This document shows, piece by piece, positions 4,906-20,528 of a DNA stretch of 35,737 nt (its first letter is position 1; each line of letters begins with the position of its first letter). This DNA is from a virus. The notes beneath the pieces were generated by a model. It was not told where the DNA came from. It did not search any database and worked only from the letters and a program-made list of their open reading frames with translations. The DNA lies in the IMG/VR virus record IMGVR_UViG_3300042883_000694, positions 1 to 35,737 of that record. One strand, written 5' to 3'. Made by a program: the position numbers and the translations under genes.

Positions 4906-5254
4906 TGATATTTATTCCGTTAAAAATAGGTTTTTCAACCTCCTCTGTTACTTGGTGATTCATTGATAATTTTCTTAGTTCTTCAGGACTTGCAATCAAT
5001 TTCATCAATGCCATTTGCAAAGCGGGAGCGTTTGACTTGTACCATTTTGACCGCATCGAAACTTTTAATTCAATACGATTAGTTTCCAACAACCCTTTTA
5101 GCTCGTTAACTTCGTTAGATTGAATAGGAAAATACTCGTAAAAAGTAGGTTTTGAAATTGGTAAAAAGGCGACTATATCCTCAATAAAAAATAGTTTATG
5201 CTTAACTATCATTTCCTTTGCCTGTTCAAATATCTTTTGTTTGTCGTATGCCAT
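4850..5254 (-). CDS. terS: Terminase small subunit (putative)
   Basis: A 134-aa protein directly upstream of and overlapping the large terminase gene. The N-terminus carries a helix-turn-helix-like segment (IEDIVAFLPISKPTFYEYF, residues about 24-42), followed by a helical region and an acidic, Ser/Thr-rich tail. Size, HTH and position fit the DNA-recognition subunit of the packaging motor. The start shares bases with the stop of the ABC-ATPase gene (TAATG at 5256-5252), suggesting coupled translation. Identification rests on context and the HTH, since small terminases diverge strongly. Confidence 0.8.
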   Translation of the reverse strand: MAYDKQKIFEQAKEMIVKHKLFFIEDIVAFLPISKPTFYEYFPIQSNEVNELKGLLETNRIELKVSMRSKWYKSNAPALQMALMKLIASPEELRKLSMNHQVTEEVEKPIFNGININVTRNDSTTEDSESTKEG

Positions 5255-6342
5255 TATCCTATATATTTAAAACTTACAGTAATTCTATTAGATGAAGTAC
5301 TGCCTTTTTTATTTTTATTTTGTATTTTACCGCTACCGCCACCGCTACTTGTTCTTCCTATCCTTGTTATAATCCAATTTTTATCATTTTTTCTTGAATT
5401 AATAAAAGCAGGGCTTGAACTTGTAGAAATAAATCCTTTATTATTTTGTTTTAATATTTCAGCAATATTGCAACTTAATTTATGACCCAAACCGATACCT
5501 TGATAATCAGGTAAAACTACTGTTCTATGTTCTTTCCAATGATTTTTTAAAATTGGATGTGGAAAAGGTAAAACACTACAAAAACCAAAAATATTATTAT
5601 TTATAGTGCCTATAAAAACTCTTGCAGCATTATTATGCGAATGGCTTAAATAATGATATTTACTAAACATTGACCAATATTTTGATTTTTCTTTTGTTTC
5701 GTATATTTTAAATTCAATTTCTGGTCTATTTTTTTTTTGCTCTCTATAATCATAGAAAGTCATATCATTTGTATTAAAAACCCAATCAGGCAATAACCAA
5801 TCTTCTACATCGTGATGGCAAGTAATTGCAATAAATTTTTTATTTGTTTTTCTTATTGCTTTCTGCATAGCAAAAGAGCCTATTTTAGCTACTTCCCTAT
5901 CTACTACAGATGTAAATTCATCAAAAGCAAATGTTTCGTTATCTGATAAAATAGCATTTGCTAAATCAACTCTCATTTTTTCACCATTTGATAAAACTGA
6001 ATAAGGTTTTAACCAACTTGGTGGACTTGAAAATCCAACTGAATTAAATGTTTTACAAATTTCTTCTACTGATTTATTTTTTGGCATATCATCTAAAATA
6101 CTTTCGTTTTTATATTCAAATGAATTAATTAAAACATCTGAAAATAATTGTTTTGCTATTGTAGTTTTACCAGTTCCTGAATGTCCAACAATTAATCCTA
6201 TTTGCCAATTGTCATCAATATCAATATTACCTTTGAATCTTTCTTCTATAACATTTGAAGATAAATCAAAAGTCCCCTTAACACTTTCTATTCTAAAAGT
6301 GCTTTTTGGTTCGTGTTTTTTTATAATGTCAAAAGTCGGCAT
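5254..6342 (-). CDS. ABC-type ATPase fused to a GNAT-like acetyltransferase domain (COG2401-like)
   Basis: A 362-aa two-domain protein. Residues about 20-200 form a soluble ABC ATPase: Walker A GHSGTGKTT (53-61), signature LSNGEK (117-122), Walker B FAFDEF (138-143) and an H-loop histidine at about 176-177. Residues about 210-300 look like a GNAT acetyltransferase, with an acyl-CoA loop in VVLPDYQGIGLGHKL (275-289). The tail is Ser/Gly and basic, ending in a strand ITVSFKYIG. No transporter membrane segments exist, so this is not a transporter. This architecture matches the group annotated as COG2401. The gene overlaps the ParB-like gene by 22 nt upstream and abuts the small terminase downstream. 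The substrate is unknown; a role in packaging-associated DNA or protein modification is inference. Confidence 0.85.
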   Translation of the reverse strand: MPTFDIIKKHEPKSTFRIESVKGTFDLSSNVIEERFKGNIDIDDNWQIGLIVGHSGTGKTTIAKQLFSDVLINSFEYKNESILDDMPKNKSVEEICKTFNSVGFSSPPSWLKPYSVLSNGEKMRVDLANAILSDNETFAFDEFTSVVDREVAKIGSFAMQKAIRKTNKKFIAITCHHDVEDWLLPDWVFNTNDMTFYDYREQKKNRPEIEFKIYETKEKSKYWSMFSKYHYLSHSHNNAARVFIGTINNNIFGFCSVLPFPHPILKNHWKEHRTVVLPDYQGIGLGHKLSCNIAEILKQNNKGFISTSSSPAFINSRKNDKNWIITRIGRTSSGGGSGKIQNKNKKGSTSSNRITVSFKYIG

Positions 6343-6827
6343 TCGTAATTTCTTTCTATTAATTCGTTATACAATAATTCTTGTGTTTTTTCATCAGATA
6401 AAATTACTTCAATTCTATAATTTGTTTCTAAATTATCAGATAAATCATTATCTTCATTTTCATTATTTAAGTCAAATGTAGGCACGTCTAACCCCCAATC
6501 TTCCAATTGTTCAGTGTCCCATTCATTTAATAAATCCCAATCCCATTCCCCGCCTGAAACATTATCTTTAATCAAAAACTCTTTTTGTTGCTCCTCAGTC
6601 AAATCAGTTACAATAACTGGTATTTCTTTTAACCCTGCTTCTTTACAAGCCTTGTATCTCATATTACCACCTAATATAATCATATCCTGATTAACAACAA
6701 TAGGTCTTATATCTAACATTTCTGGAAAGTCTTTAATAGACTGAACTAATTTTGTAAACTTATCATCCTTAATTATTCTAGGATTGTTTGGATTAAGTTT
6801 TATTTCGTTTATTTTTAAATATTTCAT
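6321..6827 (-). CDS. ParB/sulfiredoxin-like domain protein
   Basis: A 168-aa protein with a ParB N-terminal type fold: PNNPR near residue 13, then IILGGNMRYKACKEAG (51-65) carrying the GGNxR box that binds nucleotide in this superfamily, followed by an IPVIVTDLTEEQQ strand-helix. After an acidic linker (about 118-135) there is a short extra C-terminal alpha/beta unit. It lacks the HTH and dimerisation parts of chromosomal ParB, so plasmid-type partitioning is unlikely. Phages often place such single-domain ParB proteins near terminase genes. It starts by ATGA overlap with the 70-aa gene and overlaps the ABC-GNAT gene by 22 nt, so the pair probably works together. Confidence 0.85.
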   Translation of the reverse strand: MKYLKINEIKLNPNNPRIIKDDKFTKLVQSIKDFPEMLDIRPIVVNQDMIILGGNMRYKACKEAGLKEIPVIVTDLTEEQQKEFLIKDNVSGGEWDWDLLNEWDTEQLEDWGLDVPTFDLNNENEDNDLSDNLETNYRIEVILSDEKTQELLYNELIERNYECRLLTL

Positions 6828-8065: not shown

Positions 8066-8238
8066 TATTTTAATTCGTCTATTGAGTTATTTACTGCTTT
8101 ATTAAAATCGTGTCCTAATTCTAGTGAAATTATTTTTAATTGAAGTCCTAAGTTTCCTATTGCATCAATCTGTAAATACGGATCTTTTAATTCAATTGCT
8201 TCTTTTAATTTTTCTAATTGTAATTCTAGTTCTTTCAT
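8065..8238 (-). CDS. Small helical protein (57 aa)
   Basis: A 58-codon frame, ATG 8238 to TAA 8065. The ATG overlaps the VRR-NUC stop (ATGA, 8238-8235) and the stop overlaps the next start (TAATG). The sequence begins MKELELQLEKLKEAIELK and continues with LGLQLKIISLELGHDFNKA. It is entirely helical with heptad-like leucines, suggesting a small coiled-coil or helical-bundle protein. Function unknown; a partner for the neighbouring nuclease is possible. Confidence 0.6.
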   Translation of the reverse strand: MKELELQLEKLKEAIELKDPYLQIDAIGNLGLQLKIISLELGHDFNKAVNNSIDELK

Positions 8239-8618
8239 AATTTTAGTTTTAAATTTTCGGCTAATATAACTATTTTTTTGAATTCGTCAAGTGATCTAAC
8301 TAAAAAATATTTGTGACCTTGTGAAATAATACTTTTTTCAAATTCTTTTTGTTTTTCTGATTGCTTACCTTTATAATCTTTTAATTCAATAAACAAAACT
8401 TCTCCATTATTTACACAAATCAAATCACTTACACCAGCTAAAACTCCTGATTGAATATACTTTGAATTATTCCTTGTTGCTTCGTTTGGAACTGAGAAAC
8501 AAATTATACCATTCTTTCTACAAAATGCTATAATTTCAACTTGAATTGTGAACTCTGACTTGTTGCTTAATGCCTTAATTTTACTCTCACTCATCTTTTT
8601 TATGCTTTCCAACTTCAT
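8235..8618 (-). CDS. VRR-NUC domain nuclease
   Basis: A 127-aa stand-alone PD-(D/E)XK nuclease of the VRR-NUC group. Visible active-site elements are E22/Q26, the core SGVLAGVSDLI with D65, ELK with E78 and K80, and the QSEKQ segment (86-90). The length is that of the bare domain, as in many phage members. The family includes Holliday junction- and flap-processing nucleases. Its gene follows the origin-like region and the primase, consistent with a role in resolving replication or recombination intermediates. The ATG at 8618 has GGTAACA, part of the repeat array, as its leader. Confidence 0.9.
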   Translation of the reverse strand: MKLESIKKMSESKIKALSNKSEFTIQVEIIAFCRKNGIICFSVPNEATRNNSKYIQSGVLAGVSDLICVNNGEVLFIELKDYKGKQSEKQKEFEKSIISQGHKYFLVRSLDEFKKIVILAENLKLKL

Positions 8619-8657
8619 TTGTTACCTTTTTATGTTTTATAACTACTTGATTTTCAA

Positions 8658-8803
8658 CTTTGTTACCTTGTTACCTCGTTACTTCATTATTTTAAGACTT
8701 TTTTCTATAATATATATATTATGTCATTATGTATAATATGATGTAATATATATATGTTCTATAATACTTTTTATTGAATATTTTAGGTAACAAGGTAACA
8801 AAG
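8658..8803. repeat. 18-bp perfect inverted repeat bracketing the AT-rich core
   Basis: The left arm 8658-8675 (CTTTGTTACCTTGTTACC) is the exact reverse complement of the right arm 8786-8803. Each arm contains two hexamers spaced 8 bp apart. The intervening 110 bp has very few G or C bases. Confidence 0.9.
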
Positions 8804-8829
8804 TAGTTTTATTTATTGATTTTAAACAA

Positions 8830-8887
8830 GTTACCCTGTTACCTTTTTAAAATAAAACAGGTAACATTTAGGTAACAAGGTAACAAA
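8830..8887. repeat. Iteron cluster of GTTACC/GGTAAC units
   Basis: Five hexamers in 58 bp: two GTTACC (8830, 8838) facing three GGTAAC (8860, 8871, 8879). Within-pair spacing is 8 bp, making GGTAACAA tandem units. The array runs up to the primase stop codon at 8888-8890. Confidence 0.85.
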
Positions 8888-11071
8888 TCAAAATGGAGCT
8901 TCATTGTTGTTTTTCATAAATTCAAACTCTTTATACAATTTATAACCCTTTTTTAATTTACCTAAGTATCTATAAGTGTGTAATTCCATTTTGTGTTTGG
9001 TTACTAATCTTTTTATATCGTATTTACTTAGTTGTGTTTTGAATTTTATAGCCATGTAGTCCATTATCTCACCTTGATTTAATACTACTTCATTTATAAA
9101 GTTTTCACTTTGTTCAATCGAAAATTCAGTAAAGAATAAATCTTCAAAAATATCAATCTCAAGGTTTGCTGTTGTGTTTTCATTTAGGTAGTCTATATCT
9201 TCTTTGCTGAATATTCTAAACTCAAAATTATCTTTATACATTGTATAGGCACATTTTAGTAAAGCATCTTTATTAAACGCTTTTGCTCGTTCGTAATCGA
9301 CTGAATTAAATTCAATGGGTAAAATTCTTCTGTTTCCCGTTTCATCTTTTAAAACTGCTGAATCGTTCGTTGTTCCACAAAGCATCGTTCTTCTTTTTAA
9401 ATCTACATCTAAATGACCGTAAGGAAGCCTAACTGTTATTTTATTTTTTTCTGTTATTTTTTTAAAGTTTTTTACGTCCTTTCCTGCCATTCCACCGAAT
9501 TCATCGTTTAACATAATTAAAGAAGTAGCCATTCTCTTCATTACATCTTTACCAGCTTCTTCCATACTTTCATCAATAAAGTATTTTCTTAGTTCTAATG
9601 GTAGAATGTTTCTAAAAAATGAAGTTTTTCCGCTCGCTTGTTTACCGCACAATACCAAAACTAATGGACTAACTTCTTCGTGTTCGTATGATGCAGTCCA
9701 ATTGTGTATCGCTCCGACTAACCATTTTCTTAAAATCCATCTATTAAAAATATTAAATGGTTTAATTAAGTCTGCGTATTCGTCAATTTCATTTCCTGTT
9801 ATCTCTGTTTTATTATTTTTAAAATAGTCATTAATCGGATTATAACTTAACGCTTTTGAATTAAATATAAGTTGTCTAACATCTGTTGCACTTACTTTGA
9901 AATCAAAGTATTTCTTTGCGTGAACGGTTATTGTATTAATTATTTCATCGTTTAATATTTCGCTTCCAATTTCCATTGATTGATTAAAATCATTTTTAAT
10001 TATTGGATAGTTTTCTTTAACAAAATTATCTAGTTTTACAGTTTCGTTATTCTCATCTTCTATATTTTTAACAAAGTTTTCTTTTGAATTTATTAATTGT
10101 TGAATAAATTTTTTGTCTGTTGTTTCTACTCCTAAAACATCAAGTGTTTTCATTACACTTTCAGGGGTTTGAATGTTTCCATTTGCCTTACCTACTGCAA
10201 CTTGTTTAATTATTTTCTTTGAAGTTTCAGAATATAATTCGCATCCAGATTGCTTAGCATAAAAATAGAATGTAGAAATATTTATATTCCCTTTTTGACA
10301 AAATTTAGCATATTGTTTTTCAATTCTTTTAGCATCATATTTAGAGCCATTTTGACAAATAGTTTTAAAATAATTCAATCCATCTATTCCAAACTCAGAA
10401 CCAATAGCGAAACCAATATCACAAAACTTTTTATAGTCATCTTCGCAAAGGTCTATATTTCTGCTTTTAATTTGGTCTATAATATATGAAAAGTCATCCT
10501 GAGCAAAAAAGAATGTTTCTTTTTTTACTTCTTTCTTTTGTTTTTTAGCTACAAATTTTGATGACTTTTCATTAACATAAATATCCATATCAAAAGATAT
10601 ATATCTTAAACGTGAAGCATCTTTACAAGACTGATCAATATCTACATTAAACATATCAGAATAATACTGTGCTAATCCGTGAAACGATTCGATAAATAAT
10701 TCAGGATTTATTTTAACAAAAACAACTAAACCAGTTCCACTAACAGAACGATTTGAACACATTGTATATTTATCTTCATCGATACGTTTGCGAAGCTCTG
10801 TATCTACAACATCATCAATATCAATTAAAATTAACCCGTTCATTTCTTCAACATTTGCAACTGAACGACCACCTTGTTTCTGCGTACAACTTCCTGTTAT
10901 TGCAGGTAACTGAGATTTAAAACTATTATAAATTGCTTTGTCTTTTATGTTTGCCCTAGCATTAAAAATCAAACCTTGATGGTCTCCATTTTTCACTAAT
11001 TCTACATATTTTTCAAAATCTATTTTGATGTTATCTTTATCAAAATGCGTTTTATACTTACTGAATATCAT
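8888..11071 (-). CDS. Primase-helicase: BT4734-like AEP domain, PriCT, VirE-type ATPase
   Basis: A 727-aa replication protein. The N-terminus (about 45-175) is an archaeo-eukaryotic primase-type domain of the BT4734/VirE N-terminal kind: metal-binding ILIDIDD (81-87), SVSGTGL (109-115) and a basic SRLRYISFD segment (about 153-161). A PriCT-like helical region follows (about 200-285). The C-terminal half is a VirE/SF3-like ATPase with Walker A GKQASGKT (about 472-480), a Walker B-like LIMLNDEFG and a sensor segment GTTND. It probably primes and unwinds phage DNA at the adjacent origin-like region. The start overlaps the SF2 helicase stop by 14 nt. Confidence 0.9.
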   Translation of the reverse strand: MIFSKYKTHFDKDNIKIDFEKYVELVKNGDHQGLIFNARANIKDKAIYNSFKSQLPAITGSCTQKQGGRSVANVEEMNGLILIDIDDVVDTELRKRIDEDKYTMCSNRSVSGTGLVVFVKINPELFIESFHGLAQYYSDMFNVDIDQSCKDASRLRYISFDMDIYVNEKSSKFVAKKQKKEVKKETFFFAQDDFSYIIDQIKSRNIDLCEDDYKKFCDIGFAIGSEFGIDGLNYFKTICQNGSKYDAKRIEKQYAKFCQKGNINISTFYFYAKQSGCELYSETSKKIIKQVAVGKANGNIQTPESVMKTLDVLGVETTDKKFIQQLINSKENFVKNIEDENNETVKLDNFVKENYPIIKNDFNQSMEIGSEILNDEIINTITVHAKKYFDFKVSATDVRQLIFNSKALSYNPINDYFKNNKTEITGNEIDEYADLIKPFNIFNRWILRKWLVGAIHNWTASYEHEEVSPLVLVLCGKQASGKTSFFRNILPLELRKYFIDESMEEAGKDVMKRMATSLIMLNDEFGGMAGKDVKNFKKITEKNKITVRLPYGHLDVDLKRRTMLCGTTNDSAVLKDETGNRRILPIEFNSVDYERAKAFNKDALLKCAYTMYKDNFEFRIFSKEDIDYLNENTTANLEIDIFEDLFFTEFSIEQSENFINEVVLNQGEIMDYMAIKFKTQLSKYDIKRLVTKHKMELHTYRYLGKLKKGYKLYKEFEFMKNNNEAPF

Positions 11072-12981: not shown

Positions 12982-13641
12982 TTATAATTGATCAAAAATT
13001 GAAACTTGGTTATTCTTATTACTTTCTTCTATTCCTATCATAGTATTGTAAATTGTTTTTCCAGCTTCATAGTCAACTAAATTTCGTGCTACTTTAATTA
13101 AAGATTGGTTTCCTTTATAGCTTGAAATATCTATTTTATGAAATTCACAAAGTCTATTTAATTCATTTTTACCAGCTCCAATTTGTATTCTTCTATCATT
13201 TAAATTTGTAGGTAAATTAAAATTAGTCCAATATAAATGACGACCTCTTTTTTTAGCTTGTATTAAAGGCTCGTAATAAGGAATAACATTTTCAACAACC
13301 CATTTACCTTTAAAATAATGCTGTAAAAATAATATTTCTTCATACAATTTCATGTCTGGGTAAATAGCTTCTGTAGTAGTATCATAATTATAACTATTCC
13401 AATACCTCGCCCTTGAGTGTGTTGGGCAGGGTGGTGAACTCCATATAAAATCAAATTCTTTAAAATGCTCTAACAAATATTGGTGAGCATCTGCAACTAT
13501 TACCTTATCATTTGGGAATCGCTCTTGATATAATTTAGCAAGTTCTTCATCCAATTCAACCGCTGTAACATCGCAATTTTCCCAAAGTAACCTGTTACCA
13601 CCTAAACAAGCGTATAAATTTAGTACTTTAATTTTCTTCAT
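12982..13641 (-). CDS. C5-cytosine DNA methyltransferase (short phage type)
   Basis: A 219-aa protein with the C5 methyltransferase motif order: motif I LNLYACLGG (7-15, the SAM site), an acidic AVELD (28-31), motif IV SSPPCPTHS with catalytic Cys72, and motif VI ENV (117-119). A basic motif VIII-like NDRRIQIG lies near 148-155, and a C-terminal motif IX/X helix at about 186-204. It is much shorter than typical Dcm enzymes, with almost no room for a target-recognition domain. No cognate endonuclease is adjacent, so an orphan anti-restriction enzyme is likely. The last residues contain QVSIF (212-216), which resembles a beta-clamp-binding motif. Confidence 0.85.
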   Translation of the reverse strand: MKKIKVLNLYACLGGNRLLWENCDVTAVELDEELAKLYQERFPNDKVIVADAHQYLLEHFKEFDFIWSSPPCPTHSRARYWNSYNYDTTTEAIYPDMKLYEEILFLQHYFKGKWVVENVIPYYEPLIQAKKRGRHLYWTNFNLPTNLNDRRIQIGAGKNELNRLCEFHKIDISSYKGNQSLIKVARNLVDYEAGKTIYNTMIGIEESNKNNQVSIFDQL

Positions 13642-18279: not shown

Positions 18280-18792
18280 TTATTTGCTTTTTTCTATTAA
18301 TAATTGTTCTATTTCGTTACTTACATTATACTTTGCTTTGATTTGATCAATCGTTCCTTTGCCCTCTTTTAAAGCATCTACGCAACGGATAAAGTTAGTT
18401 GAACCAACTTGTAAGATTTCTTTAACTATTGGTTGTGGTTGGCTTGCTCTTTGACCATCATCGTCATCCGCCTGTAAACTCATCAAACTTTGTAATGTAT
18501 ATCTACGGTAATAAGTCACTTGACTGCCCAAAGCCTGTGCCGTTAAATTTGGGCTTAAGTCAATTGCACTTTCTACCATTTCAAAAGTATCAATGTCAAT
18601 GATTTGTGTAAAAACCTTGCCATCTTTAATAGGCTGTAACATTATCAAACCTTTTTCAAGTAGTATTGGTTCGACTGCTTCAATTAATGCGTTTAAATCT
18701 GCGTACGTGTTTTTGAAGTGTGGGTTTTTTGCGTTTTTCTTTACCACTCCAATTTCTTTCTTAGCCTCGTGTATTTTTGCGTAAATTTTCAT
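18280..18792 (-). CDS. erf: ERF-family single-strand annealing protein
   Basis: A 170-aa phage recombinase of the ERF superfamily. It shows the diagnostic NPHFKNTYADL (23-33) and the ALGSQVTYYRRYTLQSLMSL segment followed by the acidic ADDDDG (87-113). ERF proteins form rings on ssDNA and anneal complementary strands, as P22 Erf does. The C-terminus (about 120-170) is a variable tail. It overlaps the upstream 67-aa gene by ATGA and sits in an operon with an SSB-like DUF3127 protein, a natural partner. Confidence 0.92.
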   Translation of the reverse strand: MKIYAKIHEAKKEIGVVKKNAKNPHFKNTYADLNALIEAVEPILLEKGLIMLQPIKDGKVFTQIIDIDTFEMVESAIDLSPNLTAQALGSQVTYYRRYTLQSLMSLQADDDDGQRASQPQPIVKEILQVGSTNFIRCVDALKEGKGTIDQIKAKYNVSNEIEQLLIEKSK

Positions 18793-18992
18793 AATTTCTC
18801 GTATATTAAATCCATTATTTCTTCTATTTGTTTTTCTGAAAATATATCAGTAACATCAATGTCCTGAATGTATACTGTTAAGTCTTCGATGTCACCACCC
18901 TCCTCAGGTTGATACATTGTTGCTGGCACATATTGGTCGATGCTAAATTCACATCCTAGTTCAATGTGTAAATATTTTACGTAAGTTTTCAT
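18789..18992 (-). CDS. Hypothetical acidic protein (67 aa)
   Basis: A 67-aa strongly acidic protein (EEGGDIEDLTVYIQDIDVTD, then KQIEEIMDLIYEKL). The pI and size recall phage DNA-mimic or inhibitor peptides, but nothing specific is seen. It starts in the common leader AAAATTATGAAAAC and ends by ATGA overlap with erf. Confidence 0.55.
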   Translation of the reverse strand: MKTYVKYLHIELGCEFSIDQYVPATMYQPEEGGDIEDLTVYIQDIDVTDIFSEKQIEEIMDLIYEKL

Positions 18993-19005
18993 AATTTTAG
19001 TTGTT

Positions 19006-19269
19006 TTAGTTAAAATTTACTTTTTCACATTTAAAAGAACCATCTAATTGTTTAACGAAATAGTGGTGCCATTCATTAATTGTTGATTCTTGACTTTTAA
19101 GAGCATATAAAAAGCCATTTGATACATATACATTGTCATCATCGTTAGTATTAATTTGATCTAAAATATTTCTACCATTTAAACCCATATCAATTAGTAA
19201 ATCTTTCACATCGTAAGCATCAATTTTGTTTATCTCTGTTCCTCTGTAGTTAATTTTTTCAGTTTTCAT
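19006..19269 (-). CDS. Hypothetical protein (87 aa), first gene of the P1 operon
   Basis: An 87-aa acidic protein (YDVKDLLIDMGLNGRNILDQ, then YVSNGFLYALKSQ). It is the promoter-proximal gene, with the ATG about 23 nt from the P1 -7 element. The leader ends AATTAATTATGAAAAC. There is no recognised domain. First genes of such operons are often early host-takeover proteins, but that is inference. Confidence 0.6.
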   Translation of the reverse strand: MKTEKINYRGTEINKIDAYDVKDLLIDMGLNGRNILDQINTNDDDNVYVSNGFLYALKSQESTINEWHHYFVKQLDGSFKCEKVNFN

Positions 19270-20016: not shown

Positions 20017-20528
20017 ATTAATTCTTTTAATTTATTATTATATACCTCACTTGCTTCCTCTTCATTTAAAAAATAACCTAGAAAAAGATTTTTACCATTA
20101 ATTTTGAATCTAACTGTCCATTTGTTTCTTTCTTTATCCCAACTAACTCCAGTATATTTTGAAGTTCCATTTTTTCTATCTTTAGATGCATTTTCTCTAT
20201 TAGTTATAATTTGTAAATTTTCTAATCTATTATCTAATGGATTATTGTTTATATGGTCTACTACTAATTTTAAACCACAAGGCTTATGACCTAAAAATGC
20301 TATTGCCATTAATCTATGAGGATTAGATGTTTTTATTTTACCATTTTTATATAAACTTACACTATAATAACCATTTGTATCTTTACCTAGTTTTAAAATT
20401 TTCTCTTTACATATAAATGGAAATTTACCTTTATTAAATTTTATTCGTGACAAACTTTTAATATTACCTAAATTACTAACCTCATAAATACCCTCATAAC
20501 TAGGTAATTCTTTCCAAATTTCTTCCAT
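20013..20528 (-). CDS. HNH homing endonuclease (NUMOD4-HNH-AP2)
   Basis: A 171-aa free-standing homing endonuclease. An N-terminal NUMOD4 (WKELPSYEGIYEVSNLGNIKS, residues 4-24) is followed by an HNH core around VVDHINNNPLDNRLENLQII. The C-terminal AP2-like DNA-binding domain (YTGVSWDKERNKWTVRFKI, then FLGYFLNEEEA) completes the usual layout. It is embedded between the membrane GAF-like gene and the holin, overlapping the latter by ATGA. It is probably a selfish insertion that spreads between related phages. Confidence 0.92.
   Translation of the reverse strand: MEEIWKELPSYEGIYEVSNLGNIKSLSRIKFNKGKFPFICKEKILKLGKDTNGYYSVSLYKNGKIKTSNPHRLMAIAFLGHKPCGLKLVVDHINNNPLDNRLENLQIITNRENASKDRKNGTSKYTGVSWDKERNKWTVRFKINGKNLFLGYFLNEEEASEVYNNKLKELI

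Follow-up and report, generated by a model that had tools for sequence, protein, structure and literature searches.

A probable replication origin in a Bacteroidota phage: iterons around an AT-rich core covary with the predicted wing of the adjoining VapE-type primase-helicase

Results

An iteron array at positions 8619–8887 of the window (the whole IMG/VR virus record IMGVR_UViG_3300042883_000694, 35,737 nt) is very likely the DNA replication origin of the phage, read by the adjoining VapE-type primase-helicase through its C-terminal winged helix. This reading rests on covariation between iterons and protein across related phages; there are no replication, binding or copy-number data. What the computation shows is the architecture of the array, its conservation, the prediction of a winged helix and the covariation between wing and iterons. 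The site had been picked out in an earlier note, made from the sequence alone, as a candidate replication origin. Our results support that proposal as the best-supported reading, with initiation and binding themselves remaining inferred.

Organization of the iteron array

The array exactly fills the gap between two co-directional minus-strand genes, the stop of the primase-helicase (8888) and the start of a VRR-NUC-like gene (8618); its position right beside the primase-helicase gene is thus confirmed. The features are as follows (coordinates, strand, description).

8235..8618, minus, VRR-NUC-like nuclease gene of 127 aa bounding the array (Pfam VRR_NUC E 2.9e-4, just below the cut-off; PHROG resolvase/endonuclease)
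8621..8626, minus, lone outer iteron immediately preceding the start codon of the VRR-NUC-like gene
8657..8683, minus, core-flanking iterons GTTACC at 8662 and 8670 and a degenerate third copy, GTTACT, at 8678; the second arm of the inverted repeat is 8657–8676
8677..8784, no strand, AT-rich core, 85% AT, with a palindrome at 8707–8722
8785..8804, plus, pair of iterons flanking the core (8786 and 8794), forming one arm of the inverted repeat (20 bp, perfect)
8830..8843, minus, outer iteron pair in opposite orientation, GTTACC at 8830 and 8838
8860..8884, plus, outer iteron set adjoining the primase stop, GGTAAC at 8860, 8871 and 8879
8888..11071, minus, 727-aa primase-helicase, the proposed initiator, with a BT4734-like N-terminal domain, PriCT_2, a VapE-like helicase and a predicted C-terminal winged helix
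8930..9151, minus, codons of the predicted winged-helix domain, aa 641–714 (AlphaFold2 with 55 relatives)
8939..8992, minus, codons of the wing hairpin, aa 694–711 (starts KMELHTYRYLGKLKKGYK), the stretch covarying with iteron sequence

Read along the minus strand, the primase stop is followed by three GTTACC copies, an inverted pair, the core-flanking pair and the AT core, and then by three copies in opposite orientation (one of them degenerate), a single copy and the ATG of the VRR-NUC-like gene. The earlier count of ten exact GGTAAC/GTTACC hexamers in 269 bp held: all ten lie within 8621–8884, while about 0.08 would be expected per 269 bp at the rate found in dinucleotide shuffles. The whole window contains 30 copies vs. 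10.5 expected, the largest number in any shuffle being 20. With its 9–10 copies the array also stands apart from every other 270-bp tile of the window, none of which holds more than six copies of any G/C-containing hexamer. The 8-bp spacing inside pairs was confirmed for four pairs (8662/8670, 8786/8794, 8830/8838, and 8871/8879). The inverted repeat, given before as 18 bp, is indeed perfect but measures 20 bp (8657–8676 with 8785–8804, 108 bp apart). The description of the enclosed segment as about 110 bp of roughly 85% AT with a 16-bp palindrome was also borne out: it spans 108 bp, is 85.2% AT (window, 69.8%) and includes the palindrome ATAATATATATATTAT. AT content alone does not make the core unique, as other 108-bp tiles reach up to 87%; the core is nevertheless likely to be the unwinding element. 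Outside the array the hexamer is, as claimed, only scattered singly: 20 copies were seen vs. about 10 expected, an approximately twofold enrichment in which every copy is isolated. A search of the array region against Rfam revealed no structured RNA. Cumulative GC skew, which had been suggested as a check, is negative along the whole window without a turn at 8.7 kb and is uninformative here, because nearly all genes of the window lie on the minus strand.

Proteins encoded in the window include a large terminase, portal and head protease, a tape-measure-like protein, an endolysin, an Erf-like annealing protein and an SSB; neither an integrase nor a DNA polymerase was recognized in those phage proteins that were scanned. 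The closest isolates, mumin and snusmum (46.5% identity), are virulent phages of Flavobacterium, and their description names neither an origin nor iterons (PMC7077304). TAnnTTTG, the −7 promoter element of Bacteroidota, is enriched in the window (101 occurrences vs. 66 expected), which fits a Bacteroidota host.

The primase-helicase has a predicted C-terminal winged helix

The 727-aa protein scores above the Pfam cut-offs for PF08800, PF08707, and PF05272, and so combines BT4734_N, PriCT_2, and VapE domains in one chain. It matches a PHROG DNA primase at 1.7e-73, and the sequence profile of its helicase part matches PDB 7pds, annotated as 'similar to D. nodosus vapE' (E 1.4e-11). The full-length AlphaFold model was poor (mean pLDDT 58), and nothing but its C-terminal part was used. 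AlphaFold2 run with 55 relatives predicts that residues 641–714 form a winged helix, at pLDDT values mostly of 79–91, and the full-length model gives the same elements: helix 641–649, strand 660–664, helices 666–677 and 683–692, and strands 697–702 and 705–714. Structural comparison of this domain by VIA-align returned winged-helix proteins of many families (LmrR, Fur, ArgR, RFX) at Z 5–6.4. These matches support the fold class only and point to no specific relative. RFX is known to read DNA with its wing, and the resemblance to it may serve as a lead, no more. A sequence search of the PDB with the C-terminal domain gave no meaningful match, and Foldseek with the same domain found nothing at E ≤0.001, only weak hits to winged-helix proteins.

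The array is conserved among relatives while its iterons change

Relatives were drawn from viral contigs, isolates and one Flavobacterium MAG, a single contig of which was all that a search of bacterial genomes yielded. A comparable arrangement was seen 3′ of this gene in about 65 related viral contigs and isolates (Flavobacterium muminviruses), and often in far relatives as well. Nearly all relatives show the usual succession 3′ of the primase, i.e., iterons, AT core, iterons, and VRR-NUC, and several of them also carry the single copy before the VRR-NUC ATG. The earlier note had named a lack of conservation in relatives with the same primase among the findings that would speak against an origin; the comparison shows the opposite, as the architecture is kept in nearly every one of them. 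The outer iteron sets (8830–8884 in the window) are retained in most relatives and are additional to the two sets described for PICIs; copy control or handcuffing are conceivable roles for them.

The iteron sequence itself differs between phages. We found GGTAAC, GGTTAC, TGTAAT, GGTAAT, GGTAAG, GGTAAA, AGTAAAC, AGTTAC, and GGTAGT types. Copies within a single phage mostly agree, whereas between phages all copies change together. Within the group to which the window belongs, a 94% identical relative (L004) has GTAACC in place at the window's GTTACC sites. The AT core is similar within clades and may stay identical while the iterons change; between close relatives it is more strongly conserved than they are, and pairs whose iterons all differ still share 92, 90, and 64 consecutive bases of it.

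In three relatives (L010, L021, and mumin6-1) a T5orf172-type nuclease gene lies between primase and array, and the array reappears behind it with 8–9 copies. The insertion is annotated as PF10544 in mumin6-1 and the others were judged alike by eye. Beside the origin, GIY-YIG/T5orf172-type nuclease genes were seen 3′ of the primase stop in L010, L021, L028, and L083, and after the core in L015; it is possible that such genes home into or next to origins.

Farther away, one hexamer occurs at least six times in the 330 nt following the stop at 36 of 61 distant VapE-type loci, where control windows inside the gene average about three copies; the other 25 loci do not pass. A layout described as unique to PICIs is thus common in phages with a VapE-type primase. 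It is not universal, since the distant relative P12024L has only four TGTAAT-like copies and no array was found 3′ of the primase of Cellulophaga phage phi46:1. One 39.6-kb contig (IMGVR_UViG_3300042310_000167) bears two VapE primase genes (L114 and L119) that are 94% identical and have different wings and different downstream repeats. Chimeric assembly could explain this contig, or else the phage has two replicons.

Wing residues covary with the iterons

In 55 dereplicated phages we regressed the difference in iterons on that in the primase, using sliding windows of 15 residues and taking the distance over residues 11–600 as covariate. A single peak stood out, at residues 694–708 (partial r 0.40); windows in the protein body had a mean of 0.00, an sd of 0.07 and a maximum of 0.19. 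By max-statistic permutation over all windows the peak had p 0.001, also when labels were shuffled only within clades. The set includes L010, in which the array sits behind the nuclease insertion; its repeat profile at the compared place amounts to noise. The covarying stretch coincides with the predicted hairpin wing (strands 697–702 and 705–714), and little signal was detected in the helices at 666–692. As controls, the VRR-NUC protein gave a partial r of 0.017 and the upstream SF2 helicase one of −0.07, while the wing reached 0.36 and 0.33 on the same control sets. A second, independent set of 40 distant primases, collected with another query, likewise had its maximum at the C-terminal hairpin (r 0.275, p 0.002). 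The partial r of the main set is moderate, and the peak of the second set is only modestly above its body maximum of 0.22.

Pairs of close relatives display the same relationship directly. Snusmum6-1 (L031), whose array lies at about 18,790–19,050 of its record, and L037 differ in every iteron but share a stretch of 92 identical bases in the AT core; their primases differ at 8 of the 22 residues at 691–712 vs. 8 of 705 elsewhere. The same counts (8/22 vs. 8/705) were obtained for L040 and L044, and 7/22 vs. 8/705 for L084 and L044, the latter pair sharing a run of 64 identical bases in the core. DNA identity between L031 and L037 goes from 74% in the wing to 96% in the tail between wing and stop, then to 48% in the left iterons, 92% in the core segment, 72% in the right iterons and 94% in the next gene. 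Mosaics of the L031/L037 and L044 type cannot derive from transfer of one continuous tract; coupled selection, perhaps together with short exchanges, could account for them. There are also counter-cases: in L041 vs. L047 and L046 vs. L047 the iterons differ with only 3 or 2 differences in the wing.

Within the wing, residue 708 is K or R in phages with GTAAC, GTAAA, or GGTAG iterons, and M, I, V, F, or H in those with GTAAT or GTAAG. This rule fits 57 of 59 rows (the exceptions are L078 and L079). Well-supported branches in a tree of residues 1–640 force at least eight changes of iteron class, and of eight independent pairs seven agree with the rule and none opposes it (sign p 0.016). The residue was picked after viewing the alignment, so we regard this test as supportive but not blind. 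In a nearest-neighbor test the wing predicts iterons better than the body does up to moderate divergence. At body differences above 0.4, i.e., between the deepest clades, it is no better than the body, and the code does not carry over. Taken as it stands, the covariation shows recognition by the primase and not, by itself, that the site is an origin. It does suggest that the start signal and the hairpin that reads it are likely to evolve together across related phages.

Proposed initiator and mechanism

The earlier note saw no obvious initiator gene, which needs correcting. The neighboring primase-helicase is the likely initiator, because its predicted winged-helix wing covaries with iteron sequence, and by analogy it would likely work in the manner of SaPI/PICI Rep and phage P4 alpha. 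In the mechanism we propose, the winged-helix domain would bind the iterons and read the bases largely with its beta-hairpin wing. Rings of the AAA+ helicase part, oriented towards the AT-rich core, would then be loaded by the iteron sets on both sides of it, after which the core would melt and the helicase would unwind the DNA. Primers would be made by the N-terminal primase of archaeo-eukaryotic type and extended by host replication proteins and polymerase. Only recognition, among these steps, has evidence, namely the covariation; direct binding, melting, ring loading, priming and use as an origin during infection are inferred.

Alternative explanations

The array might instead be an operator, bound by the primase-helicase or another regulator that controls the VRR-NUC operon or its own, with replication starting elsewhere. 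In favor of this, the array immediately precedes a start codon, whose ATG is abutted by one iteron, and initiators of iteron plasmids are known often to autoregulate. On the other hand, it sits between two co-directional genes, no TAnnTTTG occurs on either strand between 7634 and 9144 although the motif is enriched in the window, and the AT core remains identical where the binding sites have changed. Moreover, the matching reader is a helicase-primase, and the array persists with a nuclease gene inserted between it and the primase, or after it. We therefore consider an operator very improbable. A partition or centromere-like site bound by the ParB-like protein encoded at 6321–6827, which the earlier note had allowed for, is extremely unlikely. 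A protein with a ParB_N domain does lie 2 kb from the array, but the complete genomes of mumin6-1 and snusmum6-1 keep the array and contain no match to the window's ParB, only 5 of about 50 relatives have the ParB-like protein within 3 kb downstream, and it matches ParB-like nucleases as well as partition proteins.

It could also be argued that this is a stem-loop origin of the pRN1 type, in which the inverted arms extrude a cruciform recognized by its shape, with the hexamers arising only as a consequence of the arms. The perfect 20-bp arms, 108 bp apart, speak for it, as does the stem-loop reported 3′ of a similar protein in pRN1 and phage BIP-1 (PMC4234260). However, direct and inverted sets of iterons are present well beyond the arms, and what is kept within each phage is repeat identity and not arm complementarity, the inverted arms following from iteron orientation. 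In L009 the inner left unit (GTAACC) and the inner right unit (GTAACTTT, read towards the core) pair incompletely, as judged by eye, and the protein wing is tracked by base sequence, not by shape. This reading is accordingly held to be very unlikely. Hitch-hiking, whereby one recombination tract would bring the primase end and the array together from another phage, has in its support the short distance, about 50 bp, that separates the wing codons from the stop codon and first iterons. Against it stand the alternation of low and high identity between L031 and L037 described above and the lack of correlation for VRR-NUC, which is equally close on the other side. Such an artefact thus has very little likelihood as an explanation, although short-tract exchanges may be the route by which matched wing–iteron sets move.

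Comparison with known replicons

One of the closest parallels is the SaPI/PICI replicon, with its VapE-like SaPI helicases included. The C-terminus of SaPI Rep binds iterons directly downstream of rep (PMC7581432), and in PICI origins an AT-rich region 3′ of rep is bordered on each side by a set of iterons (PMC6092414). Here, too, the array lies immediately 3′ of the proposed initiator gene (rep or pri-rep in SaPI/PICI), except in the relatives with a nuclease insertion, short iteron sets occur on both sides of an AT-rich region in the window and its relatives, and iterons differ between elements. In SaPI/PICI the initiator is a helicase that loads itself and in some cases carries a fused primase, and its C-terminal domain reads the iterons; the counterpart of that domain here is the predicted winged helix in which the covariation is located, without binding data. 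A PICI is a satellite lacking a full set of structural genes, and this is not met by the window, which has a large terminase, portal and head protease. Unlike those satellites, the phages described here are full-size tailed phages with extra outer iteron sets and with wing residues tied to the repeat sequence.

P4 alpha with ori1/crr shares the primase-helicase fusion and a C-terminal winged helix that binds origin repeats (PMC4234260). Its primase is of the TOPRIM type, whereas that of the window (BT4734_N/PriCT_2) is of the AEP type, so the match to P4 fails on this point. P4 is known to have a distant second site, crr; in the window, unlike P4, the repeats surround one core beside the gene. 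ORF904 of pRN1 and the proteins of phages BPP-1/BIP-1 resemble the window's protein in having an AEP primase, PriCT_2 (BIP-1), an SF3 helicase and a winged helix, and their proposed origin is likewise downstream of the gene (PMC4234260). They are reported with a stem-loop and without origin-like iterons, while in the window and its relatives a clear iteron array, rather than a stem-loop, is the conserved feature. In SCCmec, the C-terminal domain of Cch2 binds short direct repeats (AAGTG iterons) in the intergenic region downstream of its own gene (PMC7581432); the differences are that only three iterons are present, that the primase complex, CCPol-MP, is separate, and that the element is chromosomal.

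Repeated initiator sites beside an AT-rich unwinding region, as seen here, are also familiar from lambda O and ori-lambda and from iteron plasmids (RepE, RepA). The lambda iterons lie inside the O gene, and the lambda O, RepE, and RepA initiators are not helicases; no initiator of these families was recognized in the phage proteins scanned. Geminiviruses offer a parallel to the covariation, as the iterons of close relatives differ and are matched to the cognate Rep (PMC12548392), yet Rep is a rolling-circle initiator, unrelated in protein and mechanism. The pattern expected of ParB/parS, a linked ParB with a conserved site, is not met, the array being kept in complete relatives without a ParB match.

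Replication specificity

A bolder reading, against which we lean slightly on present evidence, is that of a switchable replication address. Selection would repeatedly replace all iterons of an origin plus a few wing residues, so that close relatives would fall into numerous groups of replication specificity, comparable to plasmid incompatibility groups, and the code from wing to base would be readable in part. In the tightest pairs the primase is about 99% identical outside the wing. Avoidance of replication interference between co-infecting phages, or of origin theft by satellites, are possible examples of such selection.

On the joint reading of array and primase-helicase, a large group of Bacteroidota phages very likely gains both its origin and its initiator, with no replication or binding data as yet, and a layout that has been called exclusive to the origins of phage satellites appears in virulent phages. 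Such an assignment would also allow replication specificity to be inferred from sequence and the reasons for the diversification of phage origins to be explored. This kind of origin is known; the setting in virulent Bacteroidota phages, the switching of whole iteron sets in place and the localization to the wing are new as far as the literature searched shows. The matched pairs L031/L037 and L044/L084 make initiator specificity directly testable, since a few wing residues and the hexamer set can be swapped from one almost identical phage to the other.

Additional observations in the window

A nucleotide search of the phage collection for near relatives returned only a 47-bp HNH fragment: positions 20452–20498 are 95.7% identical to the HNH homing endonuclease of Staphylococcus phage vB_SscM-1, the two phages being otherwise unrelated at the DNA level. 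At 5254–6342 the window encodes a 362-aa protein that joins an ABC-type ATPase part (best match at about aa 9–180) to a C-terminal GNAT acetyltransferase part. Finally, a 219-aa ORF at 12982–13641 matches only the first quarter of C5-cytosine methylases and is possibly a truncated or split methyltransferase.
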